Shown here piece by piece: positions 1 through 33,678 of a DNA stretch of 38,610 nt; the first letter of the stretch is position 1, and the number at the start of each line of letters is the position of its first letter. The stretch is from Acidobacteriota bacterium. Lineage in GTDB: Bacteria > Acidobacteriota > Terriglobia > Acidiferrales > UBA7541. The notes under the pieces are model-generated. The model was not told where the DNA came from, ran no database searches, and was given only the letters and a program-made list of their open reading frames with translations. Position numbers and translations under genes: made by a program. Location of the stretch: the NCBI GenBank assembly GCA_003224145.1, contig QHYN01000215.1, positions 1-38,610 of the forward strand, read 5' to 3'.

Positions 1-54
<54 letters not shown>

Positions 55-192
55 GCGGGACCACCGGATCACTAGACCCGACTTTCGTCCCTGCTCGACT
101 TGTAAGTCTCACAGTCAAACCGGCTTCTGCTCTTGCACTCCACAGCGGGTTTCCAATCCGCTTGAGCCGATCTTTGGGCGCCTCCGTTACTG

Positions 193-225
<33 letters not shown>

Positions 226-385
226 TCTGGCCGTGTCTCCCCGCCCGTCTCGGGCGGTAGGTTAGAGCGACAGAACAATCAGGGCAGTATTTCACTGTTG
301 CCTCCCCTCCAGCCGAAACCAGAGGTTCACAGGCTCCTGCCTATGCTACGCAGACTATTCCGTTACTCATGACCAGAGTGCAGTT

Positions 386-418
<33 letters not shown>

Positions 419-485
419 CATCCGGCGTCTTCACCGGAACCACAAATTCGCCGAGCCGTTCGCCAAGACAGTCGCTCTATCATTC

Positions 486-529
<44 letters not shown>

Positions 530-1166
530 CGGTTTCTCCTACTCTGTTTCCAGAGAAGCCGGACTTTCTCTTTCGCTGCCTGTGTTCATTACTGAAGCTA
601 TCTCCCGTATTTCTTCAATGCCTTCCGTCTTCAAGTGTTTTCCCTGATTCATCAGGTGCAGAATCTTTCGGAACCTCGCGAAGTCGACCCGCTTCTTCGA
701 TTTCAGCGGATGCTTTTCGAAGAAGGGAACAATCCTTTCAGTGAGGTGATTCAGCCCCCGGACTCGGTAGGCCATTCGATCGCCGTGATTTTGTCTCACT
801 ACTCCGCAACCGAAGAATTTCTTCAGCGCGTGAAGCAGTTGAACATCACGTCGGTGCTGAACGACTGTGAATTCGGGGAGCACTTGGTATTGGCAAGACA
901 TTTCTGGGTGCGGGTTAATGCCAACGTAGAAGCAACCTTCTCCGTCAACAAAACCTACCACCCATTGGGCTTGTAGCTTCTCAGGATGCGACTGAACGTC
1001 AAGTCTCTGAGGGTTCTCCATTACTTTTTCTCCTGGAGTCTTCCCTGCGGATTGTCCCCATGTCAGCCGGCTTTTGACTGCCGCGTGTTAGCGCGGCGAG
1101 TACCGGACTGCTGTGCGAGGAGTTTCCCGCATATGGTTCAGTTTTACTAAGGCTGCGCGATCGTTA
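530..1166 (-). ncRNA. Group I self-splicing intron in 23S rRNA, insertion site L1931
   Basis: 637-nt insertion exactly between the equivalents of E. coli U1931 and A1932. P1: the 5' exon end CTAAGGT pairs fully with the intron guide GCCTTAG (1147-1153), giving the U.G wobble typical of the splice site. The last intron base is G (530), the expected omega-G. Core pairings seen on the minus strand: P3 ACTGAAC (1136-1142) with GTTCAGT (991-997); P4 TGCGG (1127-1131) with CCGCA (1046-1050); P7 GACTT (1001-1005) with AAGTC (562-566); P9 hairpin CTCTG-GAAA-CAGAG (542-555) with a GNRA loop. The segment around 995-1010 reads as a canonical R element (CAGAGACTTGACG). L1931 is a known insertion site of bacterial and organellar group I introns. 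Pairings were found by eye and no covariance model was run. Confidence 0.93.
539..1021 (-). CDS. LAGLIDADG homing endonuclease encoded in the 23S intron
   Basis: 160 residues. A single LAGLIDADG-type motif, WVVGFVDGEGCF, spans residues 20-31, with E28 as the likely catalytic acid. The C-terminal half carries the family pattern of a PFFEKHPL segment, then K-K-x-D-F and a final EGIEEIREIASVMN. One motif and about 160 residues fit the homodimeric LAGLIDADG_1 class, which cleaves the intronless allele and drives homing into 23S genes. An AGGAG lies 8 nt before the ATG. Codons 4-12 overlap the P7 5' strand and the P3 3' strand of the ribozyme, and the last ~12 codons cover the P7 3' strand and P9; the stop follows P9 directly. 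Translation therefore competes with ribozyme folding. The target site is probably the L1931 region, as for other endonucleases of this locus; that is inference. Confidence 0.93.
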   Translation of the reverse strand: MENPQRLDVQSHPEKLQAQWVVGFVDGEGCFYVGINPHPEMSCQYQVLPEFTVVQHRRDVQLLHALKKFFGCGVVRQNHGDRMAYRVRGLNHLTERIVPFFEKHPLKSKKRVDFARFRKILHLMNQGKHLKTEGIEEIREIASVMNTGSERESPASLETE

Positions 1167-1211
<45 letters not shown>

Positions 1212-2019
1212 GTTCAAGCCTTCGCACCTTGCGGCGCTAAGCCCTTGCTTTAACCTTCCGGCACCGGGCAGGTGTCACCCCCTATACGTCGTATTCGACT
1301 TTGCAGAGAGTTGTGTTTTTGTTAAACAGTTGCAGAGCGCATTTCACTGCGACCGCTTCGGGCTATCAACCCTACAGCGGTGCCCCTTCTCCCGAAGTTA
1401 CGGGGCTAATGTGCCTAGTTCCTGAGCGAGCGTTCTCTCGAGCGCCTGTGGATATTCACCTTGTCTACCTGTGTCGGTTTGTGGTACGGGCACCTGGTGG
1501 ACTCCTTAGAGGTTTTTCCTGGCAGCGTGAAATTGGAAACTTTGCGGTCGTACGACCTCGCGTCCAGCCTCACCGTTGAATGACCCCGGGGATTTTCCTC
1601 CGGAATCCGGCTTGCACTGTCCGATCGGGATATCCATCACCCGACTTCCCTATCCTTCTGCGTCACCCCATCGTGTTAACGTCACCAGGCGGGACAGGAA
1701 TGTTGACCTGTTGTCCATCAGCTACGCCTTTCGGCCTCACCTTAGGACCCGCCTAACCCTGAGCGGATTAACCTTCCTCAGGAAACCTTAGACTTTCGGC
1801 GACACGAGTTCTCATCGTGTTTATCGCTACTTATGCCGGCAGGGTCTCTTGTGTAGTGTTCAGCAGTCCTCTCGGTCTGCCTTCAGACTCCACGCAATGC
1901 TCCCCTACCAAAGTGCGCTGCTTGCGCAACGCACATTTCGCAGCTTCGGTCGTATGCTTGAGCCCCGTTGGATTGTTGGTGCATATCCGCTTGACCAGTG
2001 AGCTGTTACGCTTTCTTTA

Positions 2020-2055
<36 letters not shown>

Positions 2056-3081
2056 CGAGCGAATACACTTCCTTTCCCACTTAGCATACAGTTAGGGACC
2101 TTAGCTGGCGATCTGGGCTGTTTCCCTTTTGACCACGAAGCTTATCCCTCGTAGTCTCACTCCCGTGCAGTTGTCCACGGCATTCGTAGTTTGATTGGAT
2201 TCGGTAACCTGAGTTGGTCCCTAGTCCATTCAGTGCTCTACCACCGTGGCAATTCACACAAGGCTGTCCCTAAAGACATTTCGGGGAGAACGAGCTATCA
2301 CGGAATTTGATTAGCCTTTCACCCCTACCCTCAGCTCATCCGAGCGATTTTCAACTCACACCGGTTCGGCCCTCCAGCCGCGGTTAAGCGGCCTTCAGCC
2401 TGGCCAAGGGTAGATCATCCCGCTTCGCGTCTAATACCACGTACTTGCGCCCTATTCGGACTCGCTTTCGCTACGGCTCGCTTGCGCTTAACCTCGCACG
2501 TGACATTAACTAGCCGGCTCATTAAGCAAGAGGCACGCCGTCAGGCTTTTACGGACCGAAGTCCGTACATGGCCCTCCGACTGCTTGTAGGCATACGGTT
2601 TCAGGTTCTATTTCACTCCCCTCGCAGGGGTGCTTTTCGCCTTTCCCTCACGGTACTGGTTCACTATCGGTCGCCAGAGAGTATTTAGCCTTGGAGAGTG
2701 GTCTCCCCAGCTTCCCACCGGATTACACGTGTCCGGTGGTACTCAGGATCCCGCTTCGAGTCCGATCAGTTTTCGGTTACAGGGCTCTCACCTTCTGTGG
2801 CCCCGCTTTCCAGCGGGTTCACCTAACCGTCGGATTGGTAACTCTACTCACGCGGTCCTACAACCCCCCGGTATAAATACCGGGGTTTGGGCTGTTCCGA
2901 TTTCGCTCGCCGCTACTTTCGGAATCTCTGTGATTTATTTTCCTCCAGGTACTGAGATGGTTCACTTCCCTGGGTTGGCTCATACCCGCCTATGTATTCA
3001 GCGGGCTGTAACGAGAGTTCATCTCGCCGGGTTTCCCCATTCGGACATCCTCGGATCAAAGCCTGCTTGCGGCTCCCCGAA

Positions 3082-3116
<35 letters not shown>

Positions 3117-3466
3117 TGGCGCCAAGGCATCCACCGTACGCCCTTAGTAGCTTAATCATAAAACTTACTCAATCCGTCTTCGCATCTCTGCTTTTACGTC
3201 TTGACTCACCTGGCTCCATACATCCTCGCCTCAGCAGTCCGCTAACCCGGGCATGGGTATCGCGGAACGTCCGGTCACCCGGTTAAGGATGACTAAGAAA
3301 ACTGAGGCAGGCTTTCGTTTCCAGGACCCTCAAACAATTGAATAAGCCGCCTTTTCTTCCACAGTTATGCTCAATCTCGAGCAAACTTGTAATAACCCAC
3401 ACCTTCATTCCCCCGTACGGACCGTAATCCGCACAGAGTTATCGGCGTGGGCTTGCCAGCCTTTCT

Positions 3467-3521
3467 GTTGTCAAAGAACCTTTATTCCGATTCCATCGGA
3501 ATGTTCCGGTTGCACCGGAAC
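3467..3521 (-). promoter_or_regulatory. rrn boxA-like antitermination site with two tandem hairpins in the 23S leader
   Basis: On the minus strand GGTTCTTTGACAAC (3467-3480) matches the rRNA boxA pattern (TGYTCTTTRACA-like). Directly upstream lie two adjacent perfect 8-bp hairpins with 3-nt loops: stem ATTCCGAT (3484-3502) and stem GTTCCGGT (3503-3521). A boxB-like hairpin followed by boxA is the classical arrangement for NusB/NusE-dependent rRNA antitermination. In ordinary rrn operons such a site sits in the 16S-23S spacer. Confidence 0.7.
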
Positions 3522-3621
3522 GTGTCTGGCGGGACTTACCCGACCGCTTTGCGCGATCTCGCCTTCCAGCTCTGCCTCAGCCTTTGCTGAGCTTGTCTCC
3601 CAAAAGTCTTCCAACTTCTGG

Positions 3622-10422: not shown

Positions 10423-11636
10423 CTAGCCGTGTGGGTCGTACACTACGCCAGCAAACAGGTCCGCCCCGCTTCTTGCGTCTCTCAACAGCACTGCAAACGG
10501 GCGGTCAAACACCAGGGTTTTCTTTTTCGGAATCCCCCCGGCGAGCGCTGGCCAGAGCCATCATCACCGCGCTCGCGGCTGCGGCCACTGTCCCTTCTTC
10601 ATCCACTTCCAGGCGCGTCTTGTGGATCACTTCGCCGATAAAGAACAGCGGCGACCCTAGCGGCGTAAAATCCGCCCCCGGGTATTGAAACGCAATGCCC
10701 ATCCCCATCCGCGTCAACGGCGCCTTGAGCTGGCTCGTGAAATCGATCGTGAAGCGCGGCATGCTTAGATCGAGTTCAACCGGCTCTTGCTCGACGAACA
10801 AATCCGCCAAACTCTCTTCCGTCAGAATCTCTTCCGGGCCAACGCCCTTTGTCGGCAGCAGCATATACAGCTCGATCGCAGAGCCTTCGTATCCGAGTAC
10901 TGCCGCTTCAAATCTCTTTCCGAACCGGTACGCACCTTGCAAATCGCCTTGCCGCATCATGGGCACTAGTTTTTCGCCGCCATTCGCCAGGTGAAACGGC
11001 TTCGGTTGCGTCGCTTCCTTCTTGAACGGATCGCAAAATTTGCCCTTGAAATAGACGGCATTCGTGATCACGGCGGCCAAATTTGCTGTGGCCTCGGGCG
11101 TCACAATATGAGGAATTTTGCCCCTGGTTTTCTCCGCGACCCATTGATTGATGGCCAGTGCCGCGGAAGGCTCGTTGAGGTCCACCGCGCGCACTGCCGC
11201 ATCGTAAACTTCCTGGCATACACGCGCAAACTCCGGCGCAATCGTTGCCCTGACGTCTACCCACAAACCATTGGCAATCGTCAGTTCCGCGCCGCTGCTC
11301 GCCCGCAACTTTTTCATCAGCACTACTGCGGATTCATTCACCTCTTCCTGACTCGCATCTGCGGGCAAGGTCAGCGCCCGCCGCATCGCTGCTTTGGTTT
11401 CTCCGCCCGCACCCGTTTCTGTCATCGCCAACGCAAGAAAATACGCTCAGGGGGGAAAGGAAAACGTTTTGCTTGGGTGTTTGAGAAACTTCCTGTTGCA
11501 GCAGCGTCAGCCCAAATGTGTGAAGAGACTGCGCCGCGCCATCTGCCGCCGAGATCCAGGAGTCCACTACTGGCTCTCGGGCCTGTGGCGCGAGTTGTCG
11601 AGCGTTCCTTTGCCGAAGTCTGGCCCAGAAAGACAT
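10423..11636 (-). pseudogene. Serpin (serine protease inhibitor), disrupted by two homopolymer frameshifts
   Basis: Read through, this encodes a full-length serpin of about 400 residues. The N-terminal part (start 11636) has HTFGLTLLQQEV and FLSPLSVF. After a one-base excess in an A4 run (11438-11441, plus strand) the frame resumes as LALAMTETGAGGETKAAM, the classical serpin helix. The middle holds NAVYFKGKF and LSMPRFTIDF. The reactive-loop hinge is intact (EEGTVAAAASAV), which predicts an inhibitory serpin. A second one-base excess in a C6 run (10534-10539) truncates the frame; in the shifted frame the canonical end VFDRPFAVLLRD and LFAGVVYDP follows to a stop at 10423. The longest intact frame is 10505-11431 (308 residues). 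Either a decayed gene or two sequencing errors; both sites are homopolymers. Confidence 0.85.
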
Positions 11637-31693: not shown

Positions 31694-33499
31694 TCACTCA
31701 GGCAGATCGCCCGAGCGAATGAGAACCGACCCATCCACTTCGGTGTCGCCGGCAATGTATTTCCGCTGCACCTCCTGTTCGATGGCCTGGCGGTTCGCTC
31801 GGAACACTTCGACTCTGTCCTTGCCGTCTCCATGGAAGTGAGCGTCCAGGGCTTCTCCGCTGATGACGCACCGCACGACCGCCTCGCCATCTTGCCCGTA
31901 GAAAAGGACAAGGTCACGCCCGAAAACGAGACTCTCCATGGGCGCAGGAAACTTAAGATCGTGACGCTCAAGCCGCCATTGCACGCGGTGGACGATAAAG
32001 GTCGTGAACGGATGAATGTCCATCTCGATGCTGGCGCGGTCCAGCGCGCTCAGATAAGACTTGCGATCCCTGATGCGAATCACCGTCCAGGGATAGCCGC
32101 CCGAAGCCAACATGACGTTCATCAGGAAGCGCGCCATGCGCCCGTTCCCATCAAAGTAAGGATGGACATAACCGAAAAGCCAGTGTCCCAACACCGCGCG
32201 CACCGAAGGCTCGGGTTCCTTTTCCAGAAGGTCGAAGAACGCTGGCATGGCGTCGCGCACCGCTTCCCACCTGGGCGGAACATAGCGCGACCCGCGCAGA
32301 TACACAGGTATGTTCCTGTATCCGGCCAATGACCCCGTTTCGAGCAGGCCGGCTGTGACGGAGGGCTGGAACAATTCGCGATACCAGTCGTTGTGCACGG
32401 CACGCACGAGCGCGGTGGCGTTCTCACCGGCGATCACTTTCTCTACTCCTTTTTTCACCAGCTGGAACGCTTGCCAGTATCCCCGCGCCGCGAGGGCGTC
32501 GCGGTTTCTGCGATCGCCGGGGTCGTGCTCGGGGTCCCAGCCGCCCTGCCGCACTCTCTCAACCAAGGCAGGGTTGACGGAGTAGCCTTCAATGGACAGC
32601 GAGTGGTAGGCATCAGTCCGGTAGATGTCATCGACGAAGCGAAGATACTCTTCCTTGTCCGCCGGAAGTCCCGGCGCTTTGGGGAACGTCGCGAGGACCT
32701 TGCCGCGCATCGAGTCCCAAAGCATCTCGATCCGGCCCACAATCGGAGCGGCGGGACGGCCCAGCTTGGCAAATATATGTATATGCCTGGACTCAAAAGG
32801 ACTGCTCTCGCGCACATCGTATCCGGCGCCCTTCATCGCCCGGAGAATCTCGTCCGCGAGGTCGCCGCGCCCGGTTTGTCGGAAGGCTTTGGCAAGATAA
32901 CCGGCTTTCGCGGAATGGCCGCCGTCCAGGAGAAACCGAAGTACGTCCGAGGCGTCAGCAAGGCTCGCCATCACCACTTGCGTCTCGACGGGATACATCT
33001 GAAAGAATGATTCGGGCACGCGTACCAACGCCGCCGCCGGCGAAAACAGGCGCAATCCGTCCCTCACCGTGAGAGCTGCGGTTGCCGGCATCTCCGCAAC
33101 CTTCAGATCGTAAAGCGTTGTGCCGAACAGAAGACTGATGTCGTTATTCGTCGCTTTCGGACTGTGCACAACCAGCTGATCCGGGATCACCGTTCTCTCG
33201 CCGTGCAAAAAAAGGGACTGCTCCGGCGACAGGTGCCATTGTTCGCCAAAACGTTCGTCGCAGTAGCGTGCGCAGAATTCCCAAAACGACGCATGCCACG
33301 GCGTGCTCTCGCCGGCCTCTGCTTCGGGGCTTGCAGAGATCAGCCAACCCTTCATGACTTCTTGCAGGAAGCCGTTTTCCACCAGGCGCTCGCGGTGAAC
33401 CCGGCTCAGGTCGTCGGAACGGAACACCCGTCGGTTGCCTTCCTGGAGTGCCTCCAGCACCTCGAGCGATTCAGCCAGTTTTTCGTTTGGTGAGGGCAT
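31694..33499 (-). CDS. Large Fic domain protein: AbiEi-like N-terminus, Fic core, DUF1488-like C-terminus
   Basis: 601 residues. Residues ~15-60 resemble the winged helix of AbiEi-type antitoxins (VFRSDDLSRVHRERLVENGFL), followed by ~65-235 with the AbiEi-like body. The Fic core has the active-site motif HPYFDGNGR (446-454), matching H-P-x-x-D/E-G-N-G-R for nucleotidyl transfer (usually AMP) to protein hydroxyls. An inhibitory-helix motif, S300-L-S-I-E304-G305, fits (S/T)xxxE(G/N), so the enzyme should be self-inhibited. Residues ~515-601 look like DUF1488 (DLVLFYGQDGEAVVRC, then EVFRANRQAIEQEVQRKY). The ATG at 33499 follows GGGAGG by 6 nt. It looks like antitoxin-like DNA-binding, toxin-like enzyme and small accessory domain in one chain. 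The upstream repeat array is its likely operator. Confidence 0.88.
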   Translation of the reverse strand: MPSPNEKLAESLEVLEALQEGNRRVFRSDDLSRVHRERLVENGFLQEVMKGWLISASPEAEAGESTPWHASFWEFCARYCDERFGEQWHLSPEQSLFLHGERTVIPDQLVVHSPKATNNDISLLFGTTLYDLKVAEMPATAALTVRDGLRLFSPAAALVRVPESFFQMYPVETQVVMASLADASDVLRFLLDGGHSAKAGYLAKAFRQTGRGDLADEILRAMKGAGYDVRESSPFESRHIHIFAKLGRPAAPIVGRIEMLWDSMRGKVLATFPKAPGLPADKEEYLRFVDDIYRTDAYHSLSIEGYSVNPALVERVRQGGWDPEHDPGDRRNRDALAARGYWQAFQLVKKGVEKVIAGENATALVRAVHNDWYRELFQPSVTAGLLETGSLAGYRNIPVYLRGSRYVPPRWEAVRDAMPAFFDLLEKEPEPSVRAVLGHWLFGYVHPYFDGNGRMARFLMNVMLASGGYPWTVIRIRDRKSYLSALDRASIEMDIHPFTTFIVHRVQWRLERHDLKFPAPMESLVFGRDLVLFYGQDGEAVVRCVISGEALDAHFHGDGKDRVEVFRANRQAIEQEVQRKYIAGDTEVDGSVLIRSGDLPE

Positions 33500-33534
33500 T
33501 GAAAGCCTCCCATCTTTCTTGGGGTTGGGTCATT

Positions 33535-33678
33535 ACAAGTTTATTGTGCTGGGTAAGCACAAGTGTATGATGTTGAGGGTTCACAAGTCAATCGCACCGT
33601 ATGGATACAAGTATATTATGCCGTACAAATACAAGTCAATCATGCCGTGCAAACGCAAGTATATTATGCTTATATGCA
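33535..33678 (-). repeat. Six tandem 24-bp repeats upstream of the Fic gene (promoter/operator array)
   Basis: Six units of exactly 24 bp begin at 33535, 33559, 33583, 33607, 33631 and 33655, each opening (plus strand) with ACAAGT (GCAAGT in the last) and sharing a TAT/AAT-x-ATG-type core. On the minus strand the units alternate promoter-like boxes: TTGACT in unit 5 (33634-33639) and TATACT in unit 4 (33610-33615), 18 bp apart; TTGACT in unit 3 (33586-33591) and TACACT in unit 2 (33562-33567), 18 bp apart. The array ends 36 bp before the Fic ATG. A regulator binding the units would cover both promoters. Confidence 0.88.

Follow-up and report, generated by a model that had tools for sequence, protein, structure and literature searches.

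A gapless array of 24-bp direct repeats as the very probable operator of a Fic gene with an AbiEi-type head

Upstream of a Fic gene in an acidobacterial contig lies an array of six direct 24-bp repeats. As the array recurs with matching sequence changes before the corresponding genes of distant relatives, it is very probably the protein's own switch. We hold it highly likely that the array is the operator of its own gene and is bound by the AbiEi-type head of the encoded protein, resulting in autorepression; there are no binding, footprint or expression data. The array is conserved and, among the genes scanned, is restricted to those which code for the head. The core of its unit co-varies with the head, residue 119 foremost, and promoter-like hexamers occur in preferred units. 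The stretch of DNA that was analysed (38,610 nucleotides, contig QHYN01000215.1) is referred to as the window, and its relevant features are compiled in Table 1.

Table 1. Features of the Fic gene and its upstream repeats (positions in the window).
Feature	Position	Strand	Basis or remark
Operator array, predicted	33526..33669	-	Six gapless 24-bp units, register common to relatives
Units of the array	33646-33669, 33622-33645, 33598-33621, 33574-33597, 33550-33573, 33526-33549	-	
Promoter-like hexamers TTGACT and TATACT, 18 bp apart, within the array	33610..33639	-	Promoter scan; unit order
Promoter-like hexamers TTGACT and TACACT, 18 bp apart, second pair, proximal to the gene	33562..33591	-	Promoter scan; unit order
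Protein with AbiEi-type head, Fic domain and DUF1488, 601 aa	31694..33499	-	Start codon at 33499
Head region (residues 1-235) with AbiEi fold; winged HTH at roughly 4-55 and second domain at roughly 66-224	32795..33499	-	Predicted structure
Codon of Asn119 (co-varies with position 1 of the unit core)	33143..33145	-	
Class-II inhibitory motif SLSIEG, residues 300-305	32585..32602	-	Invariant in 14 and 17 aligned rows
Fic domain (PF02661), residues 367-464, motif HPYFDGNGRMAR	32108..32401	-	Pfam
DUF1488 domain, C-terminus, residues 516-593	31721..31954	-	Pfam; 2gpi Z 11.6

The array and the Fic gene downstream of it

All six contiguous units on the minus strand match the pattern ATNNACTTG and point in the same direction, and each of the five distances between neighbouring cores is exactly 24 bp. 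When 235 bases at the gene start were scanned without supervision for periods of 15-40 bp, a period of 24 ranked first with a z of 7.71, a value matched by none of 200 dinucleotide shuffles. Unit pattern, spacing and period scan thus confirm the six phased 24-bp repeats which an earlier note on this DNA had reported. The positions assigned there (33535-33678) denote the same array, but the register is 9 bp off when compared to that of the relatives. In the own genome, the two-unit pattern has 8 matches with up to two mismatches. Five of these constitute the array of the Fic gene; a second array was not found, the other three matches being isolated, with two mismatches each. Exact matches to the single-unit pattern occur only inside the array (3), and the 13 units outside of it which have one mismatch represent no clear excess over the 11 obtained with a reversed-pattern control.

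The encoded protein carries the class-II inhibitory motif, as defined in the available part of PMC9755527, and a Fic motif with Y in place of F. H446, D450-R454, R457 and residues 300-305 are invariant in alignments of 14 and 17 rows. AMPylation by the protein is inferred. The Fic domain is related to that of SoFic-like class-II Fic proteins with an HTH (PADLOC SoFic, E 1.6e-20 over residues 288-508), which differ from the window protein, as the latter has an AbiEi head. Of 96 locus proteins, 85 show the Fic motif. In the remaining 11, the sequence is masked with N (L020, L021), cut by the end of a contig or stretch (L085, L214-L219), or ends after 308 and 331 residues (L191, L198), so that the latter two genes may be broken. 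DUF1488 is present in only three of the 17 members that were aligned, namely the window protein, L009 and L015, which belong to the close acidobacterial clade.

The nature of the N-terminal head did not emerge from domain models. There is no Pfam or NCBIfam match in the head region of the window protein, none of 17 members matches a Pfam AbiEi model at E<=1, and of two members compared to the PADLOC AbiEi model, one reached an E of 0.028. A Foldseek search with a model of the full-length protein gave, among the 50 matches listed, Fic matches (including FICD and a Shewanella Fic protein), DUF1488 matches, and one poor unrelated match. Unlike in that list, the likeness to AbiEi surfaced via VIA and when the head was folded alone (first ~240 residues, alignment of 54 sequences, pLDDT 93.6). 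The structure search then returned AbiEi (6y8q_A, E 1.0e-5, probability 1.00) and Rv2827c (1zel_A, E 3.9e-4), the next other entry having an E of 0.04. Superposition gave a Z of 9.0 over 176 of 195 residues for 6y8q (rmsd 4.9) and of 10.2 over 221 residues for 1zel (rmsd 5.4), followed by an entry with a Z of 7.2. The head is therefore predicted to have the AbiEi (COG5340) fold, with a winged HTH and a second domain.

No match to the head was obtained in phage records. Among the plasmid records listed (60 of 79 and 60 of 77), which are annotated as Fic or 'hypothetical protein' or are unannotated, none represents a head-only regulator. The five neighbouring proteins that were scanned match a deoxynucleoside kinase, a symporter, DUF5658 (weakly), an asparaginase and an oxidoreductase; a DUF1814 (AbiEii) toxin gene was not among them.

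Phased direct repeats are also characteristic of plasmid iterons, for which repeats of about 20 bp are typical, and the array might accordingly be thought of as replication-type iterons or as a recombination site. We give this practically no credence. The adjacent gene codes for a Fic protein and occurs on chromosomal-type contigs as well as on plasmids. No replication initiator or recombinase is among the five neighbouring proteins that were scanned, and the repeats hold the promoter-like hexamers of the Fic gene.

Occurrence of the array at other loci

Further loci with the head were collected by a scan of the collection and by searches in genomes and plasmids, resulting in 63 non-duplicate loci with enough upstream DNA. 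They originate from several phyla, from plasmids and from viral contigs, and the Fic motif is visible in 60 of them, the other three being masked or cut. Excluded before counting were L011 and L070, whose upstream DNA was too short, L027, which has no head, L100, which has only part of it, and the duplicates L001-L005, L038, L045, L047-L051, L060-L067, L081, L084 and L090. The loci are not independent, since 15 of the 63, including the window, are close acidobacterial relatives with at least 86% identity.

The best period is 24 bp at 57 of these loci, 23 bp at five and 36 bp at one. It is significant (shuffle p<=0.01) in 57 cases (52 at 24 bp, 4 at 23 bp and one at 36 bp). Two of these were not accepted, namely L013, where the 23-bp period stems from unrelated repeats, and L106 (36 bp), so that a significant 23-24-bp array with family-type units remains for 55 of the 63 loci. 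Significance was not reached by L022, L025, L056, L058, L095 and L104. Among loci which were fetched later, 29 of 33 have a significant 24-bp array (28 if L185 is disregarded), all 29 at the minimum p attainable with 200 shuffles. In the remaining four, the period is not significant (L194, L198) or differs (38 bp in L218, 23 bp in L219). From this later set, 6 of 39 loci had to be skipped as they were partial or lacked upstream DNA; the pre-named plasmid matches H76 and H95 were left out, H98 taking the place of H95. Orthologues lacking the array, which would have refuted the proposal of the earlier note, were thus looked for. The loci which fall short in the two counts have mostly weaker arrays of the same kind, with L013 as the clear exception. 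The array can also be found where the head is barely recognisable: in the actinobacterial loci L101 and L102 (E 6.2e-5 and 1.4e-4), 24-bp arrays end at the start codon.

In L013, which is a close relative, the region about 136 bases 5′ of the start (3001) retains only the gene-proximal unit of the array. Upstream of this unit are other repeats of ~23 bp, which we infer to be perhaps the end of an insertion sequence. A step of 23 bp instead of 24 bp is found in L057, L077, L079 and L219, with L058, L106 and L218 as candidates; 23 bp is also the length of known AbiEi sites. On an Aminobacter plasmid (L052), two tandem genes of the Fic family (604-1725 and 2001-3539) have the array in between.

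Head-less Fic genes do not show the array. Of 75 such genes, 73 could be scanned; 24 bp was the best period in three of them, and no period of 23-25 bp was significant in any. Eight of the 73 have significant repeats, at 20, 22, 31 or 40 bp. For windows from flanks elsewhere, a z of at least 5 was obtained once in 179 cases (27 bp), compared to 55 of the 63 loci with the head, and a best period of 24 bp in 18 of 179, without high scores. Equally, no significant array at 23-25 bp precedes any of 15 short AbiEi-type genes from the same phylum. Significant at p<=0.01 were two of these (L225 at 15 bp, L223 at 21 bp), and the one with a best period of 24 bp is L231 (p 0.26). Five of the 15 control genes are below the Pfam cut-off (L232, L233, L238, L240, L241), and five of 20 PF13338 matches had been excluded as long frames. 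When inverted repeats were searched before 11 AbiEi-type genes, L222 and L240 were found at p 0.02 and nothing for the remainder. The 15-bp direct repeat of L225 (z 6.94), upstream of a gene with an AbiEi_4 domain, is possibly another type of operator for a stand-alone AbiEi-type gene.

The relationship also holds when starting from the DNA. The two-unit pattern occurs in 15 of 396 genomes, and in three of these (the own genome, G250 and G023, the last with one mismatched unit) it belongs to a varied array, each time immediately 5′ of a Fic orthologue. The remaining matches are single pairs or simple tandem repeats, and no such gene was found in the surrounding stretches examined. The period-24 signature could also be of use in recognising genes of this kind without reference to the protein.

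We considered whether the array might be a neutral tandem duplication or a mobile-element repeat without operator function. In the close acidobacterial clade, unit types alternate with a period of 48 bp, which does suggest duplication. However, the 24-bp phase has been kept across phyla despite divergence of the units, the array adjoins the start codon, and it co-varies with the head (see below), so that an origin without function is scarcely conceivable to us.

Co-variation between the unit and the head

Units were aligned independently of the protein. They consist of a conserved part, approximately (A/G)CA(T/C)nA(T/A)A, and of a five-base core which varies between lineages. The core ACTTG is found in the window, in several alphaproteobacteria and in an actinobacterium, and GCTTG in six acidobacteria, while ACGTG, CCTAA, CCTAT, GCTAA, GCGAA, GCATA, TAGTG and others occur elsewhere. 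Except for ACTTG, the cores were assigned by visual inspection of automatic profiles. The automatic count assigns 3-6 units per locus; it has a built-in minimum of three and undercounts (the window was scored as three).

Over 45 loci, operator difference correlates with head difference (0.505) and with Fic difference (0.271). The partial correlation is 0.309 for the head given Fic (label permutation p 0.002, ignoring the tree) and 0.033 for Fic given the head. As far as sequence comparison can tell, the unit core thus tracks the head and not the Fic domain. The suggestion of the earlier note that the protein's own head is the ligand of the array gains support from this; binding data are lacking.

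For the latter reason, it cannot be dismissed outright that a host regulator other than the Fic protein binds the array, and the rather conserved recognition segment of the winged helix (SRxHRERL), although cores vary, would be compatible with that. We nevertheless regard such a regulator as improbable. The array accompanies the gene into different phyla and onto plasmids, it was not seen before head-less Fic genes, the own genome has no excess of sites elsewhere, and the core tracks the head sequence.

For core position 1, residue 119 ranks first among 508 positions (partial r 0.58, the next having 0.28). By letter majority it accounts for 79 of 85 loci, a small lead over position 249 (76). 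In the head model, this residue begins a strand of the second domain. Asn is found with A, and Gln in most cases with T; His accompanies the G in GCTTG, and Lys or Arg mostly occur with G or C. These pairings agree with the contacts between amino acids and bases expected from general knowledge. Among the 85 loci, N or Q at position 119 goes with A·T in 43 cases and with G·C in four, K, R or H with A·T in one case and with G·C in 28, and nine loci have other residues. The rule therefore holds in 71 of 76 loci. None of 5000 tree simulations reached this number, the maximum being 65 (base-pair class under a two-state symmetric model, on a quick tree from the Fic part alone).

The rule had been written down before the later loci were fetched and holds for 22 of the 26 that can be scored, or for 20 of 24 without L194 and L198, which have no significant array. 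This count omits L185 (unit and head same as L055), L204, L205, L207 and L221 (other residues), and L218 and L219 (no 24-bp unit). The four loci that break the rule are L188 and L195 (N with GCGA), L212 (Q with C) and L216 (R with A). The evidence on residue 119 is limited by these failures and because many of the later loci are related to the first set. An independent-pairs test over supported branches is based on only three pairs, too few for significance, of which on average 2.6 were concordant and 0.0 opposite. A close pair is L043 (ACTTG, N119) and L083 (GCTTG, H119).

Asn119 together with a GCGA-type core recurs as an exception (L072, L188, L195), and in these loci the contact may be altered by the third base of the core. 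For core position 4, the strong matches include the Fic residues W440 and G443, a signal which perhaps reflects a clade split; at core positions 4-5, contact residues cannot be separated from a clade split. Residues of the winged helix as the sole explanation of the core were rejected, as co-variation is spread over residues 23-180.

Promoter-like hexamers and the mode of regulation

The earlier note had proposed that the array itself builds promoters. We recovered both of its hexamer pairs in a promoter scan of the array (2 pairs, compared to a mean of 0.7 in shuffles), and they are promoter-like as judged by their sequence. The order of the units was analysed for 28 loci with an ACTTG core. 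One of these (L029) was dropped because its chain has fewer than three units, and the close acidobacterial clade accounts for 14 of the other 27. TTGACT is found in the third-last unit of 19 loci and TATACT in the second-last unit of 15, at least one adjacent -35/-10 pair being present in 20 of the 27. Altogether there are 25 adjacent pairs, while shuffling of the unit order within loci gives a mean of 15.7, and 25 was not reached in any of 5000 shuffles. This order was encountered in acidobacteria and on two alphaproteobacterial plasmids (L052, L053). In the window, the last unit is located just downstream of the gene-proximal pair and, given the hexamers in the preceding units, should be the region where transcription is expected to start.

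We propose that the AbiEi-type head binds the array, the most likely stoichiometry being one monomer for each 24-bp unit. Different parts of the unit would be read by the winged helix and by the second domain. All heads would have the same orientation and follow each other head to tail. Because the -35 and -10 hexamers are part of the gene-proximal units, which also span the expected start region, filling the array would shut the promoter. The Fic enzyme, which has its own inhibitory motif, would thus be under negative feedback, and we infer that its level controls its further synthesis as heads close the promoter along the array. The stoichiometry of one monomer per unit, binding and repression are inferences, as is cooperativity, which the earlier note had invoked.

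The model is based on AbiEi from Streptococcus agalactiae and on Rv2827c from M. tuberculosis, the latter being the AbiEi-family antitoxin studied in PMC7319586. As far as the accessible parts of the sources go, both are monomers which autorepress via 23-bp sites overlapping the promoter (PMC7319586, PMC3985639). As these monomers bind 23-bp repeats, a unit of 24 bp (or 23 bp) is the expected footprint of one head. Repression by AbiEi needs the full-length protein, although the truncated forms were also unstable according to the available text (PMC7319586, PMC3985639). It is most likely that the AbiEi-Fic array works in analogy to AbiEi autoregulation, the head being predicted to have the AbiEi fold, with repression remaining an inference. 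Both this fold and the known autorepression via 23-bp sites go beyond the reading of the earlier note.

The AbiE type IV toxin-antitoxin system thus resembles the case described here in the fold of the head, in the length of the site (23 bp, compared to 23-24 bp) and in an operator which overlaps the promoter, while autorepression is established for AbiEi and Rv2827c and inferred here, judging from the parts of the publications available (PMC7319586, PMC3985639). However, the known AbiEi sites are inverted repeats, either one pair or two gapped pairs in the available portions of these papers, and not direct arrays such as the six gapless repeats of the window, which speaks against the model proposed here (PMC7319586, PMC3985639). 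The partner in AbiE is a separate DUF1814 toxin gene, whereas the head in the window is fused to a Fic domain. As there is no toxin gene among the neighbours scanned and no inverted operator, this is not an AbiE system. A comparison of the abiE sites of S. agalactiae to the family unit gave no significant match, since 153 and 612 of 2000 shuffles did equally well.

A further argument against this model is that 24 bp correspond to ~2.3 turns of DNA, so that adjacent units face different sides. Since each 24-bp step turns the next site by about a quarter turn, a row of bound heads would wind around the DNA. We also considered, as a speculative extension to which we attach low confidence, a head-to-tail AbiEi-Fic filament that would keep the promoter silent and constrain the Fic domains, combined with a transferable residue-119 code and insulated operators. 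Such a filament would have one protomer per 24 bp and would be unidirectional. The Fic domains would be held in a defined state, either parked or paired, so that the array would set the activity of the enzyme in addition to its expression. According to the code, N or Q at position 119 would go with A·T and K, R or H with G·C, each lineage having its own insulated operator.

It is also conceivable that the head activates the promoter, or that it activates and represses depending on occupancy, with the distal units serving for activation. Often, one to three further units of the array are located 5′ of the third-last, -35-like one, as would be expected in this case. However, the AbiEi relatives are repressors, according to the accessible parts of PMC7319586 and PMC3985639, and we infer that a bound head should block the polymerase because the hexamers lie within the units. 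Activation is thus unlikely, and autorepression remains the preferred interpretation.

Self-repression by a Fic protein is known. CccR from Yersinia pseudotuberculosis, in the available part of its description, combines class-II Fic and DNA-binding domains in one polypeptide and represses its own promoter (PMC9755527). However, its HTH is C-terminal, and it binds as a dimer to a single 10-bp inverted repeat with a 26-bp spacer (PMC9755527), while the window protein has an N-terminal AbiEi head, a C-terminal DUF1488 and a direct tandem array. Autorepression by AbiEi via inverted repeats is known as well. An AbiEi-Fic fusion, or a comparable direct-repeat operator, was not found in our searches of the open-licence full-text literature of PubMed Central. 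The fusion joins an AbiEi regulator and a Fic enzyme, which are two toxin-antitoxin themes, in one chain, and a direct, gapless operator with a 24-bp phase is undescribed for AbiEi or Fic in the literature searched. Close to a hundred natural pairs of operator and protein are now available from distant bacteria, with a specific prediction for residue 119. This makes DNA reading by AbiEi proteins, with the second domain implicated in it, directly testable.

Two other features of the window may be mentioned. A partial 23S rRNA gene (1-3157, minus strand, Rfam RF02541) contains an ORF for a homing endonuclease of the LAGLIDADG_1 type (539-1021, minus strand, Pfam E 4.3e-24), and this region is probably an intron or insert in the 23S rRNA. 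In addition, this acidobacterial genome codes for a serpin (10505-11431, minus strand, Pfam E 6.8e-69).
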